NCBI GenBank assembly: GCA_027491295.1
Contig: JAIXWK010000003.1
Span: 124,001 to 188,000 of the forward strand
Direction of reading: 5' to 3'
DNA: 64,000 bases
Source: Microbacteriaceae bacterium
GTDB taxonomy: Bacteria > Actinomycetota > Actinomycetes > Actinomycetales > Microbacteriaceae
Positions 31,347-43,412 of the stretch are shown here, piece by piece (position 1 is the stretch's first letter; every line of letters begins with the position of its first letter). Below the pieces are notes generated by a model that saw nothing but the letters and a program-made list of their open reading frames with translations, had not been told where the DNA came from and made no database searches. A program made the translations under genes and the position numbers.

Positions 31347-32534
31347 CTAGCGACCTGCTGCCTCGCGGAGCGCATCGACACGATCGGTTCGCTCCCAAGT
31401 GAAGTCAGGGAGCTCGCGACCGAAGTGTCCGTAGGTGGCAGTCTTTGCGTAGATTGCGCGCTTGAGGTCAAGTTCCCGGATGATTGCAGCCGGCCTTAGG
31501 TCAAATACGCTGTGCACCGCGCGCTCAATAGCCTGGGTGTCTACCTTCTCGGTGCCAAATGTCTCAACGAAGACTGCTACCGGCTTCGCAACACCTATGG
31601 CATAAGCCACCTGGATCTCAGCTTTGTCCGCAAGTCCCGCGGCAACGATGTTTTTTGCAACCCAGCGCATGGCGTAGGCAGCAGATCTGTCAACCTTTGA
31701 CGGATCCTTGCCGCTAAAGGCTCCGCCGCCGTGCCTTGCCATACCGCCATAGGTATCAACGATGATTTTGCGACCAGTTAGACCAGCATCTCCCTGCGGT
31801 CCACCGATAACAAAGCGACCTGAAGGATTGATAAAGAACTTTGTTTCCGAGCTGTCTAGCCCTGAATCTCTAAGGACTGGTTGGATGACCTGCTCCAGCA
31901 CCAGGATCGCGAGGTCATCTTGTGAGATGTCTGGATGGTGCTGAGTGGAAAGCACAACTGTGTCGATTGAGACCGGAGTATTGCCGTCATAGTTGACGGA
32001 TACCTGAGCTTTACCGTCTGGACGAATAAGTCCGTTGTTCAGTTCGCGACGAACTGTGCTTAAGCGCTCGGTGATTCTGTGGGAGAGAAGAATTGGGGTT
32101 GGCATCAAGACTTTGGTCTCGTTAGTTGCGTAGCCGAACATCATTCCCTGATCGCCAGCACCCAGTTGGCTGTCCTCGTCCGAGGATCCTGCTCTGGATT
32201 CGAGTGCAGTATCAACGCCGTGGGCAATGTCAGGAGATTGAGCGCCAATCGAGACCGAAACACCGCAACTGTTGCCATCAAAACCTATTTGCGATGAGTT
32301 GTAGCCGATGTCTACTAGCTTCTGACGCACCAGCTGTGGAATGTCAACGTATCCACTGGTGGTGACCTCGCCGGCGACATGAACTAGGCCGGTGGTAACT
32401 AGTGTCTCAACAGCTACACGTGCCTCTGGATCCTGCTCGAGCATGGCATCGAGGATGGTGTCGGAGATTTGATCACAGATCTTGTCTGGGTGACCTTCGG
32501 TCACGGATTCCGAGGTAAATGTGCGTAGCGTCAT
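31347..32534 (-). CDS. metK: S-adenosylmethionine synthetase
   Basis: Makes SAM from methionine and ATP. The 395 residues contain [12 protein letters not shown] (active-site His and Asp), the mobile-loop and signature [12 protein letters not shown], and [19 protein letters not shown]. It follows coaBC by 21 bases, too little space for a SAM riboswitch. coaBC-metK-priA order is typical of Actinobacteria. Confidence 0.98.
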
Positions 32535-32555
32535 GGCAAAAAGTCTAATCGCTGG

Positions 32556-33698
32556 TTACTTATTTAGCCCAGCGACTAAATCAATAATCGAGGCGCTTAC
32601 CTGAGCCTTGCTGCCGCTGAGTTCAACGGCGTCATCTGTGGTGACAAATTGAACCACTGTCTCTTTGCTACCCAGTGCTTCAAAGGAGTTTCCAACAACT
32701 GCGTTTACCGACTTATCGGAAAGTTTGCTGCGGGCTATCTCAATCAGTGGTTCCCCAGTTTCCTCAGCCAATGCAAATGCAATTTGGATGGTCTTCGGGC
32801 GGAGTGCAGCGTAGTTAGCGATCAGGTCTTTGGTTGGAGTCAGTGACAGGCTTAGGCCTTCAGAACGCTTTAGTTTTCCAAGATATGGATTCTCAACCCT
32901 GAAGTCAGAAACAGCTGCCGCCATGATCATCACGTCACAGTCCCGATCCATGGCCAGTTCAAGTTCATCCACGCTTCCCACGCGAGTGACCTCGATGCCT
33001 TTCGGAAGCGGAAGGTCAATGTTTGCAGCTATCAGGTGGACTGATGCTCCGGCGTCTCGGGCAGCTTTGGCAAGTTCAATCCCCATTCGGCCCGAGGATG
33101 AGTTTCCGATGTAGCGGACGGCGTCAATCGGCTCTCTGGTGCCTCCGGCGGTGACGATGACGCGCTTGCCTTTTAGAGCTCGATCTTGGAGTGCGAAGGC
33201 GATGATGTCTTCGGTCTCTGGCAGTCTTCCAGGCCCAGTGTCATCTCCGGTTAGGCGTCCGGTTGCCGGTTCCATGACCCTTACTCCCCTGGCCTCAAGC
33301 GTTGCAACGTTTGTTTGAGTGGCTTCGTTCTGCCACATTTCTGTGTGCATCGCAGGGCACACGATTACTGGAGCCTTTGAAGCCAAGATCGCATTCAACA
33401 TCAGGTCATCAGCAATACCCGCTGCGAATCTTGCAATAAATGATGCAGTGGCAGGTGCGATGAGAATTAGATCGGCCTGCTGGCCAAGCTCGACATGCCT
33501 GACTTGAGCGACATCCTGATACATGTCGGTTTCAATGGCGTGGCCACTTAGCGATTCAAGTGTTGGTTTGCCTATGAATTTCAGAGCATTCTCGGTTGGA
33601 ACGACAGTTACGTCATGGCCTAGTTCACTCAGGCCGCGAATAAGGCCGGCGGCCTTGTAGGCAGCGATTCCGCCAGTGATGCCAAGCAGAATGCGCAT
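32556..33698 (-). CDS. coaBC: Bifunctional CoaBC (PPC synthetase/decarboxylase)
   Basis: Carries out two CoA steps: CTP-dependent joining of 4'-phosphopantothenate with cysteine, then decarboxylation. The N-terminal flavoprotein decarboxylase domain (about 1-175) shows GITGGIAAYKA and CPAMHTEMW. The C-terminal synthetase domain (about 185-380) shows VTAGGTREPIDAVRYIGNSSSGRMG and KRSEGLSLSLTPTKDLIAN. 380 residues. Together with coaE at the other end of the window, it covers three of the CoA steps. Confidence 0.97.
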   Translation of the reverse strand: MRILLGITGGIAAYKAAGLIRGLSELGHDVTVVPTENALKFIGKPTLESLSGHAIETDMYQDVAQVRHVELGQQADLILIAPATASFIARFAAGIADDLMLNAILASKAPVIVCPAMHTEMWQNEATQTNVATLEARGVRVMEPATGRLTGDDTGPGRLPETEDIIAFALQDRALKGKRVIVTAGGTREPIDAVRYIGNSSSGRMGIELAKAARDAGASVHLIAANIDLPLPKGIEVTRVGSVDELELAMDRDCDVMIMAAAVSDFRVENPYLGKLKRSEGLSLSLTPTKDLIANYAALRPKTIQIAFALAEETGEPLIEIARSKLSDKSVNAVVGNSFEALGSKETVVQFVTTDDAVELSGSKAQVSASIIDLVAGLNK

Positions 33699-33707
33699 GT
33701 TAAAAAA

Positions 33708-33962
33708 TTAGTTAGCGGACTTCTTGATGAGTTTGCCCTCGTAAGCCTCGCGAAGCGCGATGCTAAGTGGCTTGTCATCAATTGAGGAGTCAACCAAAGG
33801 GCCAACGTAGTTGAACAGGCTTCCCTCATGCAGAGCGCTGTAGTACTCGTTGATCTGGCGAGCACGCTTGGATGCGAAGATAACTAGCTCGTAGTTTGAG
33901 CCAACCTTGGCCAACAACTCGTCGATTGGTGGGTAAACAATTCCCTCAAGCTTGTCGTTCAT
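33708..33962 (-). CDS. rpoZ: RNA polymerase omega subunit
   Basis: Small assembly subunit of RNA polymerase that wraps the beta' C-terminus. The 84 residues include the conserved [20 protein letters not shown] core and a C-terminal [15 protein letters not shown] helix. It overlaps gmk by 4 bases (ATGA), the usual gmk-rpoZ-coaBC order. Confidence 0.96.
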
Positions 33963-34519
33963 GATCCTCTTTCAGCTTCGTGAACCAATTCTACGACCTG
34001 ACGGGCGCAAGCCTCTAGGTCCAAATTGGTTAGTTGGTAGTCAAACTCCCCCGCAGCTGCAAGTTCTGTGCGGGCTGTTGTAAGTCTAGTTTGTATTTGC
34101 TCTTCTGTCTCGGTTCCTCTTGATCTCAACCTTCTCTCAAGCTCCTCGAAGCTAGGTGGGTTGATGAAGATCATCAATGCACCTGGCAACTTCTCAGCTA
34201 CCTGGCGGGCACCCTGCAGGTCAATCTCGAGAAGTAAGTGCTTGTTTTGCTCCTCTGCACGGGCCAATTCATTGAGTGGAGTGCCATATAGGTGGTTGCC
34301 GTGAACCTGAGCCCACTCCAACATTTGGCCGTCTTCGATTTGCTGCTCAAAAACAGATTTGGAAACGAAGTTGTAGTGAACCCCATCTACTTCTCCTGCC
34401 CTAGGGTCACGAGTTGTCGATGAAACCGAGAGCATAAAGTCCGGGTGGTTATCCAGAATCCATTTGACGATCGAGCCTTTACCGACTCCGGCAGGACCTG
34501 CTAATACCACCAGGCTCAT
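33959..34519 (-). CDS. gmk: Guanylate kinase
   Basis: Phosphorylates GMP to GDP. The 186 residues carry the P-loop [11 protein letters not shown], the GMP-binding [21 protein letters not shown], and [20 protein letters not shown]. In many Actinobacteria a mihF integration-host-factor gene lies just upstream; here gmk instead overlaps pyrF by 4 bases. Confidence 0.97.
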
Positions 34520-35322
34520 AGCTTTGCCTTCGCTTTATCGATCAGTTGACCAATCTGTTCCGGGCCATTTTTAGTGAGCTCTCGAGACATTGATGCAACA
34601 ACCCGCGGCGCGGATGCTCCGAAGATCGATTTCAGGTCTTCCAGCTTTGCGCCCTGTGCTCCAAAACCTGGAGCCAGAATAGGGATTTTGATGTCTTGCT
34701 CAGTCAGGAAGTCGATACCAAAGTCCTTCAGGTTCTGAGTGGCTCCAATAACGACACCCATCTCCCCCTGACCAATCTCCTTGGCGGCGTCAATCACTGT
34801 CCGTGAGACTGTGCGATCACCGATTAGTGCCTGCTGCAGTTGTGCTGCCTCAGGATTGGAGGTTGCGGCAAGGATAAACAGACCGCCCTGGACGTCCTGG
34901 GCATAGTTCAAAGTCTCGCGAAGTGATTCGGGGCCCAGGTAGCCGCTGACTGTAAGGGCATCAGATCGAAGTGGGGAATCATCACCAAACCAAGCTGACG
35001 CGTAACCGAGCATTGTGGAACCAATGTCGCCTCGCTTGGCATCCGCTATGACGATCAGCCCGGCGTCCTTAGCCTCGCGAATGATCTCTTCAAGGGTTTG
35101 GTAGCCAAGTGATCCGAATCTCTCGAAGAAGCCAACCTGTGGCTTTACGATGCCCAAACGCCCTTGCGCACTATCGATAATCCTTAGGCCATACTCTCGC
35201 GCTCCCGCAGCTGTATCAGGAAGCTCCCAGTTGTCCAGCTCGCTCTCCGATGGGTCAATGCCAATGCAAATCGGAGAGTGAGTCGCCATTGCCTCGGCGA
35301 GCCGGAGGGAAAACTTAGCCAC
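34516..35322 (-). CDS. pyrF: Orotidine 5'-phosphate decarboxylase (type 2)
   Basis: Final UMP step. The 268 residues match the longer mycobacterial-type enzyme, with the catalytic Lys/Asp network in [18 protein letters not shown] and a C-terminal [10 protein letters not shown] phosphate-binding loop. It overlaps carB by 8 bases and gmk by 4. pyrD, the preceding enzyme, is not in this cluster. Confidence 0.96.
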
Positions 35323-38300
35323 TGATCATCGCCTTTCGCTCACGCGCATATTCTTGCAGTGGCTTGACCTTGAATTTACCCTCGCGGATAACTTCGAATG
35401 ATCCAATAGCTGCGCTTAGCTGCGCCGCTGTGGTGAAGATTGGCTTATCGGCGGCGGTAGTTGCGGCTCTAATCTCATAGCCATCGATGCGAGCATCGGC
35501 ACCGCTCGGTGTATTCACCACGACATCGACCTCACCAGCAGTGATCATGTCAACGATTGAGCGCTGTCCACCTGTGGCCTTGGAGTGCTTGATTACCGCC
35601 TCAGCCACAATGCCGTGTCTTCCGAGCATCTTCGCGGTTCCCTCGGTTGCCAGGATTCGATATCCCAGCTGAGAGAGCCTTCTAACTGGAAGCAGCAGCT
35701 GTGGCTTGTCTCGGTCGGCAACAGAAACAAACACAGTTCCACTTTTCGGCAGAGCAGAACCAGCTCCGGCCTGGCTTTTAGCAAACGCAGTTGGGAAGTC
35801 AACGTCGATCCCCATTACCTCGCCGGTTGAGCGCATTTCTGGGCCCAGTAGTGAATCAACAAAGCGTCCATCCTTGGTTGCAAAGCGCTTGAATGGAAGA
35901 ACGGCTTCCTTTACGGAAATCGGAGTGCCAGCCGGTAGGTGTTTTCCATCCTGGGCTGGTAGGTGCCCTTCGGCAACCAATTTCTTGATGCTCCACCCGG
36001 CCATAACCAATGAGGCAGCCTTTGCCAGAGTGATACCTAGGGCTTTTGACACAAATGGCACGGTTCGCGATGCGCGTGGGTTGGCCTCGAGCACATACAG
36101 CACATCTGATGCCAGAGCGAACTGGACATTGATAAGGCCTCTAACCTGAAGGCCCCTCGCGATCTCTTCGGTTGCCTTTGCAACTCGATCAATCTGAGTT
36201 TCACTCAAAGTAATCGGTGGCAGCGTGCAGCTCGAATCGCCAGAGTGGATACCCGCCTCTTCGATGTGCTCCATGACGCCACCGACAAACAACTGCTCGC
36301 CATCGAAGATAGCATCGATGTCTATCTCGATTGCGTCATCTAGGAACCGATCAACCAATAGTGGGTGCTCGGAATCAACTAGGGCGTGGTTTGCGATTCG
36401 ATCGAAGTAACCGTTCAAGGTGTTTTCGTCGTAAACGATCTCCATGCCACGGCCACCAAGTACAAACGATGGACGAACCAATACCGGGTATCCAATGCGG
36501 TTCGCGACAGCCACTGCCTCTTCCAAGTTGGTGGCCATGCCATTGGCTGGCGAGCGTAGTCCGGCAGCATCAAGAATCTGCTGGAACTGGCCGCGCTCCT
36601 CAGCCTGATCGATGGACTCGGGAGTTGTTCCAAGGATTGGAATGCCATAGGACTTTAGCCCTTTGGCAAGGCCCAAAGCTGTCTGTCCACCAAGCTGAAC
36701 CATGACGCCAAGCAGTTCTCCGGATTGCGATTCCGCATGAATGACCTCGAGTACGTCCTCGAGAGTGAGCGGCTCGAAATAGAGCCGATCTGAGGTGTCG
36801 TAGTCGGTGGAAACAGTTTCAGGGTTGCAGTTGATCATGATGGTTTCAAAACCAGCGTCGCGTAGGGCAAAAGCTGCATGCACGCAGCTGTAGTCAAACT
36901 CAACGCCCTGACCGATGCGGTTTGGACCACTGCCGATGATCACTATCTTCTGGCGATCGGATGGGATCACCTCAGTCATTTGCTCATATGAGCTGTAGTG
37001 ATAAGGAGTAAGGGCAGGAAACTCCCCCGCACAGGTGTCAACGGTCTTGAAGACTGGCCTAAGTTCCAGGCTGTAACGCAGCTCGCGAACATCCTTCTCG
37101 GTTAGTCCTCTAATCTGGCCAATCTGAATGTCAGAGAAACCATGCTGCTTGGCACGCTTCAGTGCATCTCTATCTATTGCATCGAGATCCTTGAGCCATT
37201 TCGCGATTTCGTTAATTAGAACGATCTGGTCGATGAACCATGGGTCTATTTTGGTTGCCTCAAAGGCTTGCTCCGGAGTGACTCCGAGTCGCAAGGCCTG
37301 TTGCAGCTGAACCACTCGCTCGTCGGTAGGGGTCTTTATCTTCTCGAGTAGCTCGGCTGCCGTAAGAGCTTGTGGGCCCCAGTGGAACGAGCTGCCACGC
37401 TTCTCAAGGGATCTAAGCGCCTTCTGCAGCGCTTGGGTAAAGGTTCTGCCGATTGCCATCGCCTCACCAACGCTCTTCATGGTGGTTGTGAGGGTTGGAT
37501 CAGCCGCCGGGAACTTCTCAAAGGCAAAGCGAGGAGCCTTCACCACGATGTAATCCAGGGTTGGCTCGAATGAAGCAGGAGTCACACCGGTGATGTCATT
37601 AGGAATCTCATCCAAGGTGTAACCAATTGCTAGCTTCGCCGCAATCTTCGCGATCGGGAAACCAGTCGCCTTTGATGCTAGAGCGGAGGATCTTGATACA
37701 CGGGGGTTCATCTCAATGACGATGATTCGACCATCAACTGGGTCAACCGCAAACTGAATGTTGCAACCACCGGTGTCAACACCAACCGCACGAATGATGT
37801 CGATTGAGATGTCACGAAGTCTTTGGTACTCGCGGTCAGTCAATGTCATAGCCGGGGCAACGGTGATCGAGTCGCCGGTGTGCACACCAACCGGGTCAAA
37901 GTTCTCGATGGAACAAACCACGACAGTGTTGTCGTGTCTGTCTCTCATGAGTTCTAGTTCGTACTCTTTCCAACCAAGGATGGATTCTTCAAGCAAGACT
38001 TCTGTAGTTGGAGATGCCTGTAGTCCAGCCCCCGCGATGCGTCTGAGGTCAGTCTCGTTGTATGCAAAACCAGAACCTAGACCACCCATTGTGAAACTTG
38101 GGCGAACCACCACCGGGTAACCAAGTTGGTTTGCACCCGCAATTACTTCATCGATGGTGTGGGCAATAACGCTCTTTGCAACATCAGCGCCGGCATCCAG
38201 CACCAGCTGCTTGAAGATCTGGCGGTCTTCGCCAGCGTTTATGGCAGCAACATTTGCACCAATAAGTTCGACGCCGTACTTCTCGAGTGACCCGCGGGCA

Positions 38301-38608
38301 TGAAGTGCCATCGCCGCATTTAATGCGGTTTGACCACCAAGGGTAGGCAAGATTGCGTCAGGCTTCTCCTTTTCAATTATTGCCTCGATAACCTCAGGGG
38401 TAATCGGCTCAATGTAGGTGGCGTCTGCAAAGTCTGGATCGGTCATGATCGTGGCAGGGTTTGAGTTAATCAGGATTACCCTGATTCCCTCTTCCTGCAG
38501 CACGCGACAAGCTTGAGTTCCGGAGTAGTCAAATTCGCAAGCCTGACCGATCACGATGGGACCTGACCCGATTACCAATACGGATTTAATGTCACTGCGT
38601 TTTGGCAT
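35315..38608 (-). CDS. carB: Carbamoyl-phosphate synthase large subunit
   Basis: Makes carbamoyl phosphate for pyrimidines and arginine from bicarbonate, ATP and ammonia delivered by CarA. 1097 residues with two ATP-grasp halves ([15 protein letters not shown] in the first; [15 protein letters not shown] in the second), the oligomerisation domain between them, and a C-terminal MGS-like allosteric domain (about 950-1090) containing [13 protein letters not shown] and VVNTPSG. The start shares one base with the carA stop. Confidence 0.98.
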
Positions 38609-39723
38609 TAGCGGTGCTCCTCAATCATGCGAACAAACTTGTCAAAGAGGTAGTGGCTATCGTGTGGACCAGCAGCTGCCTCAGGGTGGTACTGAACTGA
38701 GAACGCAGGGATGTCCACACACTCAAGACCCTCAACGACCTGGTCGTTTAGTCCGCGGTGGCTTACGCGGACTTTTCCAAAGCCCTGGGGCGACTCTTGC
38801 TCATCGCCATAAACGCGCACAGCAAAACCGTGGTTGTGGGCGGTTACCTCCACGCGGCCGGTCTCAGCGTGCATCACAGGCTGGTTGATGCCACGGTGTC
38901 CGAAGGCGAGTTTGTAGGTTTCGAAACCAAGAGCTCTACCCAGTAGCTGGTTTCCAAAACAGATGCCGAAGAACGGAATACCGCGCTTGAGGACTTCTCT
39001 AAGCATCTCCACCTGAGAGCCACTGGCCTGAGGGTCACCAGGACCGTTTGAGAAGAACACCGCATTCGGCTTGCTCGCCAGAATCTCATCCGCGGAGGAG
39101 CTTGCTGGATGCACCTCAACCTCAAGGCCTCGTTCGGCGAGATGTTCGATTGTCGAGCGCTTGATTCCAAGGTCCAGGATTGCAACCTTGCCGATGCGGT
39201 TACCTACTGCAGGAACCGAGTAGATCTCCTTGGTTGTTACCTGGTTGCTAAAGCTTGCGCCCTTCATCTCAGGTGCCGCGGTTACCTTTGCAAGCATCTC
39301 GGCTTCGCTGGCAATCCTTTCTCCAGAGAAGATTCCTGCTCGCATCGCTCCTGAATCGCGAATCTGCAAAGTGATAGCTCTGGTATCAACATTGCAGATT
39401 CCGACGATGTGCTGCTCGATTAGGTCCTGGACCAAATCGCGCTCGGCGCGGAAGTTGCTGGACATTCTGGATGGTTCGCGAACCACGTAGCCTGCGACCC
39501 AGATTTGGCTTGATTCCTCATCACGCTGGTTGGTTCCGACTATGCCGATGTGGGGTGCGGTTTGCAACACGATCTGACCGGCGTAAGAAGGGTCGGTAAT
39601 CGTCTCTTGGTAACCGGTCATACCTGTGGCAAATACCAGCTCCCCAAGGGTTTGCCCCTTTGCGCCGTAACTCTCGCCCTCAAAGACCAGTCCGTTCTCA
39701 AGAACTAGGTAAGCCTTATCCAA
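38608..39723 (-). CDS. carA: Carbamoyl-phosphate synthase small subunit
   Basis: Glutaminase subunit feeding ammonia to CarB. The class I amidotransferase domain shows nucleophile Cys in [15 protein letters not shown] and the catalytic His/Glu in [12 protein letters not shown]. The start is set at TTG 39723 ([11 protein letters not shown], 371 residues) because GGAG (39730-39733) lies 6 bases upstream. An earlier in-frame TTG at 39735 is possible but has no properly spaced ribosome binding site. With the chosen start it overlaps the upstream PH-like gene by 8 bases. Confidence 0.95.
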
Positions 39724-40201
39724 TTTGTGCTCCAATCAATTGCAAGACCTTCTCTTCAAACTCTTTACGTTCTTCTGGTCTGGTGAACCTAAAGTGCGTT
39801 ATGACCTTTGTGTCACCCAATGACCAGTGAATAGCCGTCAATCCGGATTTCTCGACAGCCTTGTCGATGGTCGCAGTAGCAGCCTCAACAAGGTGCAGGT
39901 CCTTGCGTGGAATCAGAAAGCTGTCCTCGCCGGCTCGGACAACCGACACACCTGATGAATCGACCGCAAGCTTGGCGTTGCCGCGCATGCCTAGTCCGTA
40001 AGCCCAGATGCGATCTAGGTGAGCTTGCTCAAAGACGGTGGATACGTATAGGGCAGAGAATTCACCCTGCGCAGTAGCCGATGAAGGTGCAGAGATGGAT
40101 TGCTCTTGGACCTGTCGCTTTTTCTTGGTGCTTAGCCAAACACTAACCGCTATCACTACAACCAGTGAGATAGCTAGAAATCCGATTAGCTCGCGAGTCA
40201 T
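39716..40201 (-). CDS. PH-like domain membrane protein of the pyr operon
   Basis: A 161-residue protein with one N-terminal transmembrane segment (about 5-24), a basic stop-transfer KKKR, a linker, and a soluble C-terminal domain (about 50-160) resembling the bacterial PH-like domain of the protein found between pyrC and carA across Actinobacteria (Rv1382 position). The sequence gives no catalytic motif. Function is unknown; its fixed place in the pyrimidine operon suggests a conserved role, possibly only through co-expression. It overlaps pyrC by 4 bases. Confidence 0.75.
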   Translation of the reverse strand: MTRELIGFLAISLVVVIAVSVWLSTKKKRQVQEQSISAPSSATAQGEFSALYVSTVFEQAHLDRIWAYGLGMRGNAKLAVDSSGVSVVRAGEDSFLIPRKDLHLVEAATATIDKAVEKSGLTAIHWSLGDTKVITHFRFTRPEERKEFEEKVLQLIGAQIG

Positions 40202-41472
40202 TGTTGTTCCTGTATTTGGGTGTTTTTGAGAGTAAATCTGCCTTTGAAAATTGTGTGAACTATCCGTCCCGGCAACGTGATGCCCGCAAATGGGTTGTTC
40301 ACGCTCTTCGAATTGGTTTGTCTTTCAATAACTCGCTTTGCGGTCGGGTCAATCAGTGCGATGTTCGCAATCGACCCAACACTTAGCTGGCCTTGGTGTT
40401 CAAGTCCCGCAATCTGTGCGGGCTTTACGCTCAGCACATTTGCGAAACGTTCCCAGCTCGCACCACTTTGAATTAGCACCTCTTGCAGAACGGATGCCGC
40501 GTGTTCAAGTCCAACCATTCCAAAGGCGGCGTTCTGCCACTCGCACTCCTTCTTTTCACGAGAGTGTGGGGCGTGATCTGTTCCAAGCACATCGATGGTG
40601 CCATCAAGCAGTGCCTCTCGTAACGCCAAGGTGTCCTCAAGTCTCCTAAGCGGCGGATTCACTTTGTAGACGGAGTCGTAGCCTCGAACTAACTCTTCGG
40701 TCAGCAGCAGGTGGTGCGGGGTTACCTCCGCTGTGATGTTTATGCCTCGAGCTTTTGCCCATCGAACTACCTCAACAGCACCGGCGGTAGTGAGGTGGCA
40801 GATATGAAGTCTTGAACCTGTTTGCTCAGCGAGCTCTGCGTCTCGTTTGATGATTGACTCTTCTGCCTCGGCAGGCCACCCGGCCATTCCCAATTCGGCT
40901 GCAAGAGCTCCGGCATTCATCTGAGCACCAACAGTCATGGTTGGGTCCTGCGCATGCTGAGCAATTACGCCGTTGAATGCCTTGACTGCAACTAGGGCCT
41001 GGCGCATTAGATCCTCATCAAAGACACAGACTCCGTCATCGCTGAACATTCGAACCTTCGAGCGAGATTCGGAGAGGCCCTGGATGTCTGAAAGCTCTGC
41101 CCCTTGGAGCCCCTTGGTTACAGAGCCAATAGGTTTCACCTCAACGAAGCCAGCTCTAACACCAGCATCCAGAATGAAATCCGCCACCTCGGCTGTGTCT
41201 GTGACTGGGCTGGTGTTAGCCATTGCCATTACAGCCGTGTAACCGCCTGCCGCTGCACTTCTGCTGCCACTAAGAATCGTTTCGCTCGCCTCAAATCCAG
41301 GCTCGCGAAGGTGAGTGTGGGCATCTACAAAGCCAGGCAGAGCTTGCAACCCAGCGCAATCAATACCAGAACCAGAAACGGAACCGATTTTGGTGATGCG
41401 ACCCTTTTCAATCTCAATATCTGCTCCAGAGCCATTTGGCAGAGTGAGGTTTTTTAGAATCAAAGAGGTCAT
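40198..41472 (-). CDS. pyrC: Dihydroorotase
   Basis: Cyclises carbamoyl-aspartate to dihydroorotate. 424 residues of the type I amidohydrolase family: zinc-binding [10 protein letters not shown] (about 50-59), further His ligands in QHAQDP and [10 protein letters not shown], and catalytic Asp in GTDHAPHS. The reverse-order overlap with pyrB (4 bases) and coupling to the downstream PH-like gene fit a single pyr transcript. Confidence 0.97.
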
Positions 41473-42401
41473 AGCTGCTCTCCGCTCAGACAGCGGTAGA
41501 GCACTGCCATTCTTACCGCTACCCCGTTAGAAACCTGCCTGAGTACCTGGGACCTTGGGTCATCGGCAGCCTCAGATGAAATCTCGAAACCTCTGTTCAT
41601 GGGTCCCGGGTGGAGGATCAAGGCATCCTGTCCAACCATCGCTAACCGGTCACCCTCTAAGCTCCAAGCCTTGGAGTAAGCGGCGGTTGAGCTAAAGAAC
41701 TCCCCCTGCATACGCTCTTTCTGAACGCGTAACATCATGACGACATCCGGCTTTGCACTCAGTGCATCCTCGAACGAGCTGTTGACCGTTGTCCCCATCT
41801 GCTCAATTCCAACAGGGATGAGAGTCCTAGGTCCAGCAACAGTCACAGTCGCTCCCAAAAGATTGAGAAGCAAAATGTTTGATCTTGCGACCCTGCTGTG
41901 AAGGATGTCACCAACAATCAGCACTTTGAGTCCAGAGAGGTCCTGGCTCAGGCCGAAACCCTGCCGGATAGTCAGAGCGTCCAGCAGTGCCTGGGTTGGG
42001 TGTTCATGGGATCCATCGCCTGCGTTGATTACACTCGCGGAAATCCAATCCTGCTCTGCCAGAAGCTTCGGAGCTCCCGATAGAGGATGCCTGATAACAA
42101 TCGCGTCTGCACCTAAAGCTTCGAGAGTCTGGGCGGTGTCTTTGAGCGACTCTCCCTTTGATACCGAAGAGCTATCCGCTGAGAAGTTGATGACGTCTGC
42201 GCTAAGTCTTTTGGCTGCAACTTCGAAGCTGATGCGGGTTCTGGTGCTGTTCTCAAAGAATAGGTTTACAACTGTCTTGCCTCTAAGAGCTGGCAGCTTC
42301 TTGACCTCACGATCATTCACCTGAGAAAGCTGCTGGGCATTGTCTAACAGGCTGATCGCAGCGTCTTTGGTTAGTTCGCGTATCGAAGTTAGGTGCCTCA
42401 T
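41469..42401 (-). CDS. pyrB: Aspartate carbamoyltransferase catalytic subunit
   Basis: Joins carbamoyl phosphate and aspartate, the committed pyrimidine step. The 310 residues contain the carbamoyl-phosphate motif [13 protein letters not shown], the [12 protein letters not shown] segment and the HPGPMNRG aspartate-binding region. No pyrI regulatory chain is present, as expected in Actinobacteria. The start shares one base with the pyrR stop, so pyrB translation is likely coupled to that of pyrR. Confidence 0.97.
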
Positions 42402-42928
42402 TAGCCGATCACCACCTGATCTTGTCCGTCAGTTTGGTTCAGCAGCACCCTCACTCGTTCGGTCTTTGCGGTCGGTAAGTTCTTCCCCACAAAGTCAGGT
42501 CGGATCGGAAGCTCTCGGTGGCCCCGATCCACTAGCACGGCAAGTTTTACCTGTCTTGGTCTACCAAAATCTGTAATCGCGTCAAGCGCAGCTCTTACGG
42601 TCCTTCCGGAATAGAGCACGTCATCAACCAAGACCACTACTTTGTCTGTGATGCCACACTCTGGAATTGAAGTGGTTTGAATCCTGCGCTCTGCATTAGT
42701 GGCGTCATCTCTATACATAGTGATGTCTAAAACGCCGCAATTGGCTTGGTATCCGGGGTCTATTTGACCAAGGAGGAAATTGATTCGCTCGGCAAGATAC
42801 TTACCACGAGTCGGAATGCCGAGCAGAACTAGATCCTGAGGACCTTCGTTAGCTTCGAGAATTTCATGAGCAATGCGCTTTAGGGCCCGATCAATGTCGG
42901 GCGAATCGAGTACGACGCGCTTTTGCAT
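42401..42928 (-). CDS. pyrR: Pyrimidine operon regulator PyrR
   Basis: UMP-sensing RNA-binding regulator related to phosphoribosyltransferases, often with weak uracil phosphoribosyltransferase activity. The 175 residues carry the PRPP-binding motif [19 protein letters not shown] (about 96-114) and the N-terminal [17 protein letters not shown] typical of PyrR. Its own ribosome binding site sits within a PyrR-type hairpin (42934-42955), implying autogenous translational repression extended to pyrB by coupling. In Mycobacterium PyrR is known to act this way. Confidence 0.96.
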
Positions 42929-42933
42929 TTGCA

Positions 42934-42955
42934 GTCCTTCTTCGCCTCACAGGAC
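42934..42955 (-). promoter_or_regulatory. PyrR-binding hairpin sequestering the pyrR ribosome binding site
   Basis: On the minus strand GTCCT and AGGAC form a 5-bp stem around the 12-base loop GTGAGGCGAAGA. The string TCCTGTGAGGC...AAGGA matches the known PyrR binding-loop pattern (UCCnGnGAGGCunnnAAGG) with one mismatch. The 3' arm contains AAGGA, which is also the Shine-Dalgarno, 6 bases before the pyrR ATG. Binding would block translation rather than transcription; no terminator follows. Confidence 0.8.
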
Positions 42956-42980
42956 GAATTTAAAGGTGGTTTCTTGGAAA

Positions 42981-42986
42981 AGTATA
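42981..42986 (-). promoter_or_regulatory. -10 element of a putative pyr operon promoter
   Basis: TATACT on the minus strand lies 7 bases after the nusB stop and about 50 bases ahead of the pyrR ATG, placing a transcript start upstream of the PyrR hairpin. No TTGACA-like -35 is seen at 15-19 bases, so the call rests on the -10 and position. Confidence 0.4.
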
Positions 42987-42992
42987 CTGCTA

Positions 42993-43412
42993 TTAGAGAG
43001 CTTGGCGGCCTTTAGCTAGGCGTGCCAAAACACCATTGATGAACTTTGGCGATTCATCGGTTGAAAGCTCCCCCGCAAGACTTACTGCCTCGGAGATTGC
43101 GACCTCATTTGGCACCTCGCTGTTGTGAAGGATCTCCCAGGCGGCCATGCGCAAGATAGCTCTGTCTACTGCAGGCATGCGGTCAAGCGACCAGTTGTCC
43201 GCGAGCATTTGAATCTCAGAATCGATTTGGTAGGCGTTCTCTAGGTAACCGGTTACCAGCATCTCTGCGTAATCAAAGATTCCTTGCTGGTTTTGACGAT
43301 CCAGCAGCTCGACCTCGGTTTGCCTAAGTAGCTCTAGTGCTTCTTCGCCTCGAACATCGGATGCATAGAGGGCATCAAGTGCGCGCTTTCGTGCTTTTGT
43401 TCTAGCGCTCAC
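42993..43412 (-). CDS. nusB: Transcription antitermination factor NusB
   Basis: Binds boxA RNA with NusE/S10 to support rRNA antitermination. A 139-residue all-helical protein with the N-terminal SARTKARKRALDALYASDVRG motif and the C-terminal AISEAVSLAGELSTDESPKFINGVLARL signature. The start directly follows the efp stop. It is followed by the pyrR promoter/leader region. Confidence 0.96.
   Translation of the reverse strand: MSARTKARKRALDALYASDVRGEEALELLRQTEVELLDRQNQQGIFDYAEMLVTGYLENAYQIDSEIQMLADNWSLDRMPAVDRAILRMAAWEILHNSEVPNEVAISEAVSLAGELSTDESPKFINGVLARLAKGRQAL

Follow-up and report, generated by a model that had tools for sequence, protein, structure and literature searches.

The window analysed here, a stretch of 64,000 nucleotides, carries on its minus strand a pyrimidine operon that starts directly after nusB. 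Between the end of the nusB stop codon at 42993 and the start of the pyrR ATG at 42928 lies a gap of 64 bases (42929-42992). pyrR (42401..42928) encodes a 175-aa protein, a regulator and uracil phosphoribosyltransferase, which scores 244 bits against NF003547 (cut-off 230) and matches solved PyrR structures; PyrR is thus encoded and intact here. It is followed by pyrB (41469..42401; NF002032) and pyrC (40198..41472; NF006836), with overlaps of 1 nt and 4 nt that agree with the 1-4 base overlaps described in the earlier note, and then by a gene for a bacterial PH-domain protein (bPH; 39716..40201; PF25362, bPH_11; 4-nt overlap), carA (38608..39735, with the start codon as listed mechanically; TIGR01368), carB (35315..38608; CPSase_L domains) and pyrF (34516..35322; TIGR02127), which overlaps carB by 8 nt. 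The series continues on the same strand with gmk (33959..34519; TIGR03263), encoding a 186-aa Gmk and overlapping pyrF by 4 nt, rpoZ (33708..33962; TIGR00690), overlapping gmk by 4 nt, coaBC (32556..33698; PF04127 and PF02441) after a gap of 9 nt, and metK (31347..32534; Pfam) 21 nt after coaBC. From pyrR to rpoZ, the overlaps between successive genes range from 1 to 20 nt.

Read 5' to 3' on the minus strand, the nusB-pyrR gap is laid out as a -10-like TATACT, a short spacer and a hairpin (42966-42936), and it contains the sequence TCCTGTGAGGC...AAGGA that the earlier note had quoted as a PyrR-binding loop, an identification upheld by RF00515, by a covariance model of our own and by conservation. 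The predicted PyrR-binding hairpin (42936..42966, minus strand) is defined by the Rfam RF00515 alignment, the MFE fold, our own model and covariation, and the MFE fold of the leader is the Rfam PyrR fold. Its lower stem pairs CCUUU (42966-42962) with GAAGG (42940-42936) and is separated by an AAA bulge (42959-42961) from an upper stem of UUCGUC (42958-42953) and GGCGAA (42946-42941), which is closed by the hexaloop CUGUGA (42947-42952). The features of the RF00515 core, namely two stems, a purine-rich 5' bulge and a CNGNGA hexaloop, are therefore all present. A pairing of TCC with GGA, drawn for this hairpin in the earlier note, is contradicted by both the Rfam alignment and the MFE fold and was rejected; the accompanying claim that the 3' arm holds the pyrR Shine-Dalgarno sequence is true by way of the lower stem, as four of the five bases of AAGGA (42935..42939, minus strand) lie inside the 3' arm of that stem. 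For its composition the hairpin is moderately stable, with an unexceptional folding energy (z -1.8 and -1.3). Only 7 nt separate it from the pyrR start codon, which leaves no space for an attenuator, and the terminator scan found no terminator-like site on the minus strand within the gap.

When the leader was compared with RF00515, a search that the earlier note had proposed, the whole binding loop aligned with 30.9 bits (E 0.007 for the 171 nt searched). Across the genome (1.45 Mb) the leader loop was the top RF00515 match with an E value of 0.014, the other matches, at three sites, being weak at E 1.5 or worse. The leader loop nevertheless falls below the RF00515 gathering score of 54 bits, and a default Rfam scan returns nothing for it. 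The gathering score was likewise reached in none of 98 class genomes, 92 of which match at E up to 1, these matches not having been individually checked. RF00515 is a model of 115 positions that reaches beyond the loop. We also used a covariance model, R1, derived from 46 actinobacterial loops of one spacing from other genera, the window's genus being absent. Over the whole genome R1 gave a single match at E up to 10, the leader loop at E 4.9e-5 (150 of 304 first-look candidates scored), and on the same candidates a second PyrR loop elsewhere in the genome was rejected. R1 provides a small covariance model able to find the element, which the RF00515 cut-off misses in the 98 class genomes tested.

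Using a canonical-pattern search that required near-canonical arms, the loop was found upstream of pyrR at 132 of 134 loci, made up of 54 loci from a genome set and the best 80 of 592 named stretches. Of the 59 genomes in the set, the window's included, 54 yielded pyrR, and the upstream DNA, read for all 54, has the canonical loop in 53. Among the best 80 of the 592 confirmed named stretches the loop is present in 79, the sources being Microbacteriaceae, Arthrobacter, Streptomyces (many), Nocardioides, Streptosporangium, Mycobacterium, Nanopelagicales MAGs and one Zixibacteria MAG; from the relatives at these loci we infer the family of the window's organism. The AAGG element is followed 4-13 nt later by an in-frame pyrR start at 121 of the 132 loci, the start at the other 11 being slightly further away or unplaceable. 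At the level of the class, R1 matches 291 of 296 genomes, covering 104 of 106 genera, which indicates that pyrimidine synthesis in a whole bacterial class is usually wired with a PyrR loop covering the first ribosome site. The five class genomes without the loop comprise three without detectable pyrR, one with an N-masked upstream region (G242) and one with a doubled loop-like sequence (G340). In all eight genomes where pyrR was not found, those three included, the loop was absent at E up to 1, two of the eight being only 50-64% complete. When 50 class loci were inspected (the 30 best-scoring and 20 chosen), pyrR followed the loop at 45 and another gene at five, which were deliberately picked second matches.

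Several loci depart from this arrangement. The doubled sequence of G340 resembles two loop-like units in tandem upstream of pyrR, though its MFE fold is not that of two canonical loops, and in G290 the loop is not at the Shine-Dalgarno sequence but about 119 nt before the aligned start of pyrR. The two loci left out of the 132 each have a diverged loop and a terminator-like stretch. In the first, from an order-level relative (L058; oriented about 411-520), the 3' arm of the loop is not a Shine-Dalgarno sequence and a GC hairpin with a T-run is visible by eye before pyrR, although the MFE folds the stretch otherwise; this locus appears to have switched to transcription attenuation. The second, from the Zixibacteria MAG (L134; 2846-2950), keeps the same fold with an upper stem of CUAGUU/AACUAG, followed by a strong hairpin and a T-run and then by pyrR. 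The layout resembles that of a Bacillus-type attenuator, here in an organism that belongs to neither Firmicutes nor Actinobacteria, and a reading of the locus as a translational loop outside Actinobacteria was rejected because of the terminator-like hairpin and T-run before pyrR.

Covariation of the two stems was analysed in an alignment of 100 of the 134 loci, the window's loop among them, which was fitted to the model structure and hence leans toward it. Among its 89 distinct aligned loops, 93% of cells pair and changes on both sides occur in six of the 12 pairs. Both-side changes amount to 39 cells versus 10.6 in shuffled alignments, with none of 500 shuffles as high, and sliding the partners by 1-3 columns reduces pairing to 60-71%. 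Further pair types are not above the shuffles (17 versus 16.3; 196 of 500), and the outermost pair is unpaired in 37 of the 89 rows in the upper stem and in 27 in the lower stem. An ungapped alignment agrees, with 12 cells versus 4.8 and again none of 500 shuffles as high. Within the window's genus, the lower stem does not vary among the 20 pyrR-bearing members and so cannot covary there, and its conservation could in part be due to the Shine-Dalgarno sequence. The upper stem is the same as that of the window in 12 of the 20, carries G-U in two, is compensated in one (L023, U-A to C-G) and is mismatched in five. The earlier note had regarded stem positions that vary without compensation in close relatives as evidence against the hairpin; such changes do occur in these five, as a single mismatch at the outermost or next pair of the upper stem. 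These mismatches weaken the structure but do not overturn it.

A predicted pyr promoter with the -10 box TATACT (42981..42986, minus strand) lies just after the nusB stop codon. It is unlisted by a consensus sigma-70 scan and has no -35 match, and its TANNNT pattern is conserved among the loci. A TANNNT begins 13-26 nt upstream of the hairpin at 121 of 132 loci, versus an average of 14 (at most 25) in shuffled sequences and 1 to 11 loci in the other 14-nt bins upstream; this bin, like that used for metK below, was picked after viewing the sequences, and with related genomes the shuffles are not probabilities. Counting about 12 nt from the first base of the -10 box places the predicted transcript start at 42974, give or take about 2 nt, with a leader of about 46 nt. 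Transcription of the pyr operon thus most probably begins no more than about 15 nt from the hairpin. A start downstream of 42955, which the earlier note had considered incompatible with its proposal, is not what is predicted.

PyrR-dependent translational repression of the pyr operon through the leader hairpin is by far the best explanation for these sequence observations, and we consider it very probable. UMP-bound PyrR is familiar from the Bacillus literature. In the mechanism that we infer, a short pyr leader would be transcribed from its own promoter just after nusB, and with UMP plentiful PyrR-UMP would bind and stabilise the hairpin, the lower stem of which would pair the pyrR Shine-Dalgarno sequence, block 30S binding and lower the translation of pyrR. 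Through the overlapping genes, translational coupling would spread the repression to pyrB, pyrC, carAB and pyrF; under pyrimidine shortage the loop would open and the operon would be translated. As no terminator fits in the leader, translational repression is favoured, in line with the earlier proposal of translational control by a leader devoid of terminator and antiterminator, with which the empty scan of the gap and the 7 nt of room agree. It is well supported that this would be an ordinary PyrR translational switch, a device already known and common to nearly all relatives examined. What is distinctive here is that the hairpin stands before an unusually long series of tightly packed genes.

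A long, tightly packed transcript with this anatomy would also be expected if PyrR acts mainly via transcription, in that a blocked pyrR start would leave the mRNA untranslated, Rho termination would follow and polarity would be the main output. This would be compatible with translational repression as the best explanation; however, Fields and Switzer reportedly described, in 2007, a pyr operon in Mycobacterium smegmatis that PyrR represses at the level of translation, with transcriptional fusions that were unregulated, and we consider polarity an improbable main output. Smaller still is the chance that the conserved segment is merely a strong ribosome binding site with its 5' leader and without PyrR control. 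Such a site would account for a 3' arm that is the Shine-Dalgarno sequence and is invariant in the genus, but not for the conservation of the 5' arm, the bulge and the CNGNGA hexaloop, which lie upstream of any ribosome site, nor for the covarying upper-stem pairs or the failure to find the loop where pyrR was not found. A Bacillus-like transcription attenuator, with an antiterminator and terminator missed by the scan, has its layout at L058 and L134, where a diverged loop, a GC hairpin and a T-run precede pyrR, but for the window, where the distance from hairpin to start is so short and the terminator scan of the gap was empty, it was rejected and retains next to no probability.

The leader was further compared with known systems. 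As reported for M. smegmatis, pyrR is first in the operon, the loop lies in a short leader over the first ribosome site and there is no attenuator; Mycobacterium alsense has the same loop anatomy. The features of a Mycobacterium-type system found here are an overlap of loop and Shine-Dalgarno sequence, a terminator-free leader, an intact PyrR and compensatory changes (six of 12 pairs). The window differs from that type in a shorter lower stem of 5 pairs, to which many relatives add a GAC/GTC extension (by eye), in an upper stem richer in A-T and in a pyrF-gmk junction that lacks an mIHF gene or domain. With the Bacillus-type attenuator described by RF00515 it shares the two stems, the bulge and the CNGNGA hexaloop; unlike that type, it has no antiterminator or intrinsic terminator downstream of the loop by the scan, and its score stays well under the gathering threshold. 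One citing passage states that in M. smegmatis a PyrR mutation leads to overexpression of the pyr operon. Another study analysed RF00515 sites in groups that include two actinobacterial families (PMC3766115). Within the open-licence literature we found no survey of PyrR leaders in actinobacteria, which does not show that none exists. What is new here, modestly, is the class-wide count, the Rfam blind spot, a loop on carA and a refined view of the reach of the operon.

The loop on carA was observed among the 11 of 296 class genomes, from family f41 and genera g75 and g118, that have two R1 matches each. The carA Shine-Dalgarno sequence lies under the second loop in five g75 genomes, with carB next, carA having been identified by NCBIfam for two of the proteins and by eye for three. 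In four of these five both loops could be placed; there the other loop covers pyrR, and the loops are 4-16 kb apart. The loop thus accompanies the pyr genes when the operon is split, which provides independent support for the proposed mechanism. The g75 loops resemble named ones, and on that basis our guess is that this genus is Nocardioides-like.

The earlier note had further suggested that PyrR control might extend through gmk, rpoZ and coaBC to metK. Close packing as far as coaBC is conserved, since in all 12 genus genomes checked (the window's included) gmk and pyrF share an overlap of 4-10 nt and the genes from carB to metK lie within 23 nt of each other, with starts projected from those of the window; this supports a reach of PyrR as far as coaBC. 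Three minus-strand terminator-like sites inside carB and gmk count against an unbroken transcript, the scan's total of 11 such sites not exceeding that of shuffled sequences (12.8). metK is the part of the suggestion that did not hold. A predicted leaderless metK promoter has the -10 box TAGACT (32542..32547, minus strand), and in all 12 genus genomes a TANNNT precedes the metK ATG by 12-14 nt (shuffled mean 1.9, maximum 7), versus two of 12 for gmk, none for rpoZ and three for coaBC; the metK box was first noticed by eye and then counted in related genomes. The box was absent in the four other family members examined. Its spacing is consistent with a leaderless mRNA, and metK is probably the first gene of its own transcript; PyrR control is therefore expected to fade at metK, strong pyrimidine control of which is unlikely, and the view that metK simply belongs to the PyrR operon was rejected.

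It is possible, though we put this forward tentatively and with the balance somewhat against it, that in this small-genome genus a single leader under PyrR control governs one coupled polycistron running from pyrR up to and including coaBC, and that metK is the first gene to escape, under its own leaderless promoter. If true, guanylate kinase, the omega subunit of RNA polymerase and coenzyme A synthesis would depend directly on the pyrimidine level for their supply. The analysis points to downstream genes that could be drawn into pyrimidine control, metK probably not being one of them.

At the pyrF-gmk junction, an mIHF domain was not found in 22 genus genomes, 13 of which are at least 90% complete, and a narrow literature search that combined the terms returned no paper on an mIHF-Gmk fusion. 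Seven family relatives have, after pyrF, an ORF of 293-323 aa that has an mIHF-like start, covers Gmk and overlaps pyrF, and NCBIfam found both the mIHF and the Gmk domain in all three fusion ORFs tested. As these relatives already have an mIHF-Gmk fusion that overlaps pyrF, recent loss of a separate mihF promoter at gmk was rejected, and the overlap suggests that gmk was coupled to pyrF before the genus arose.
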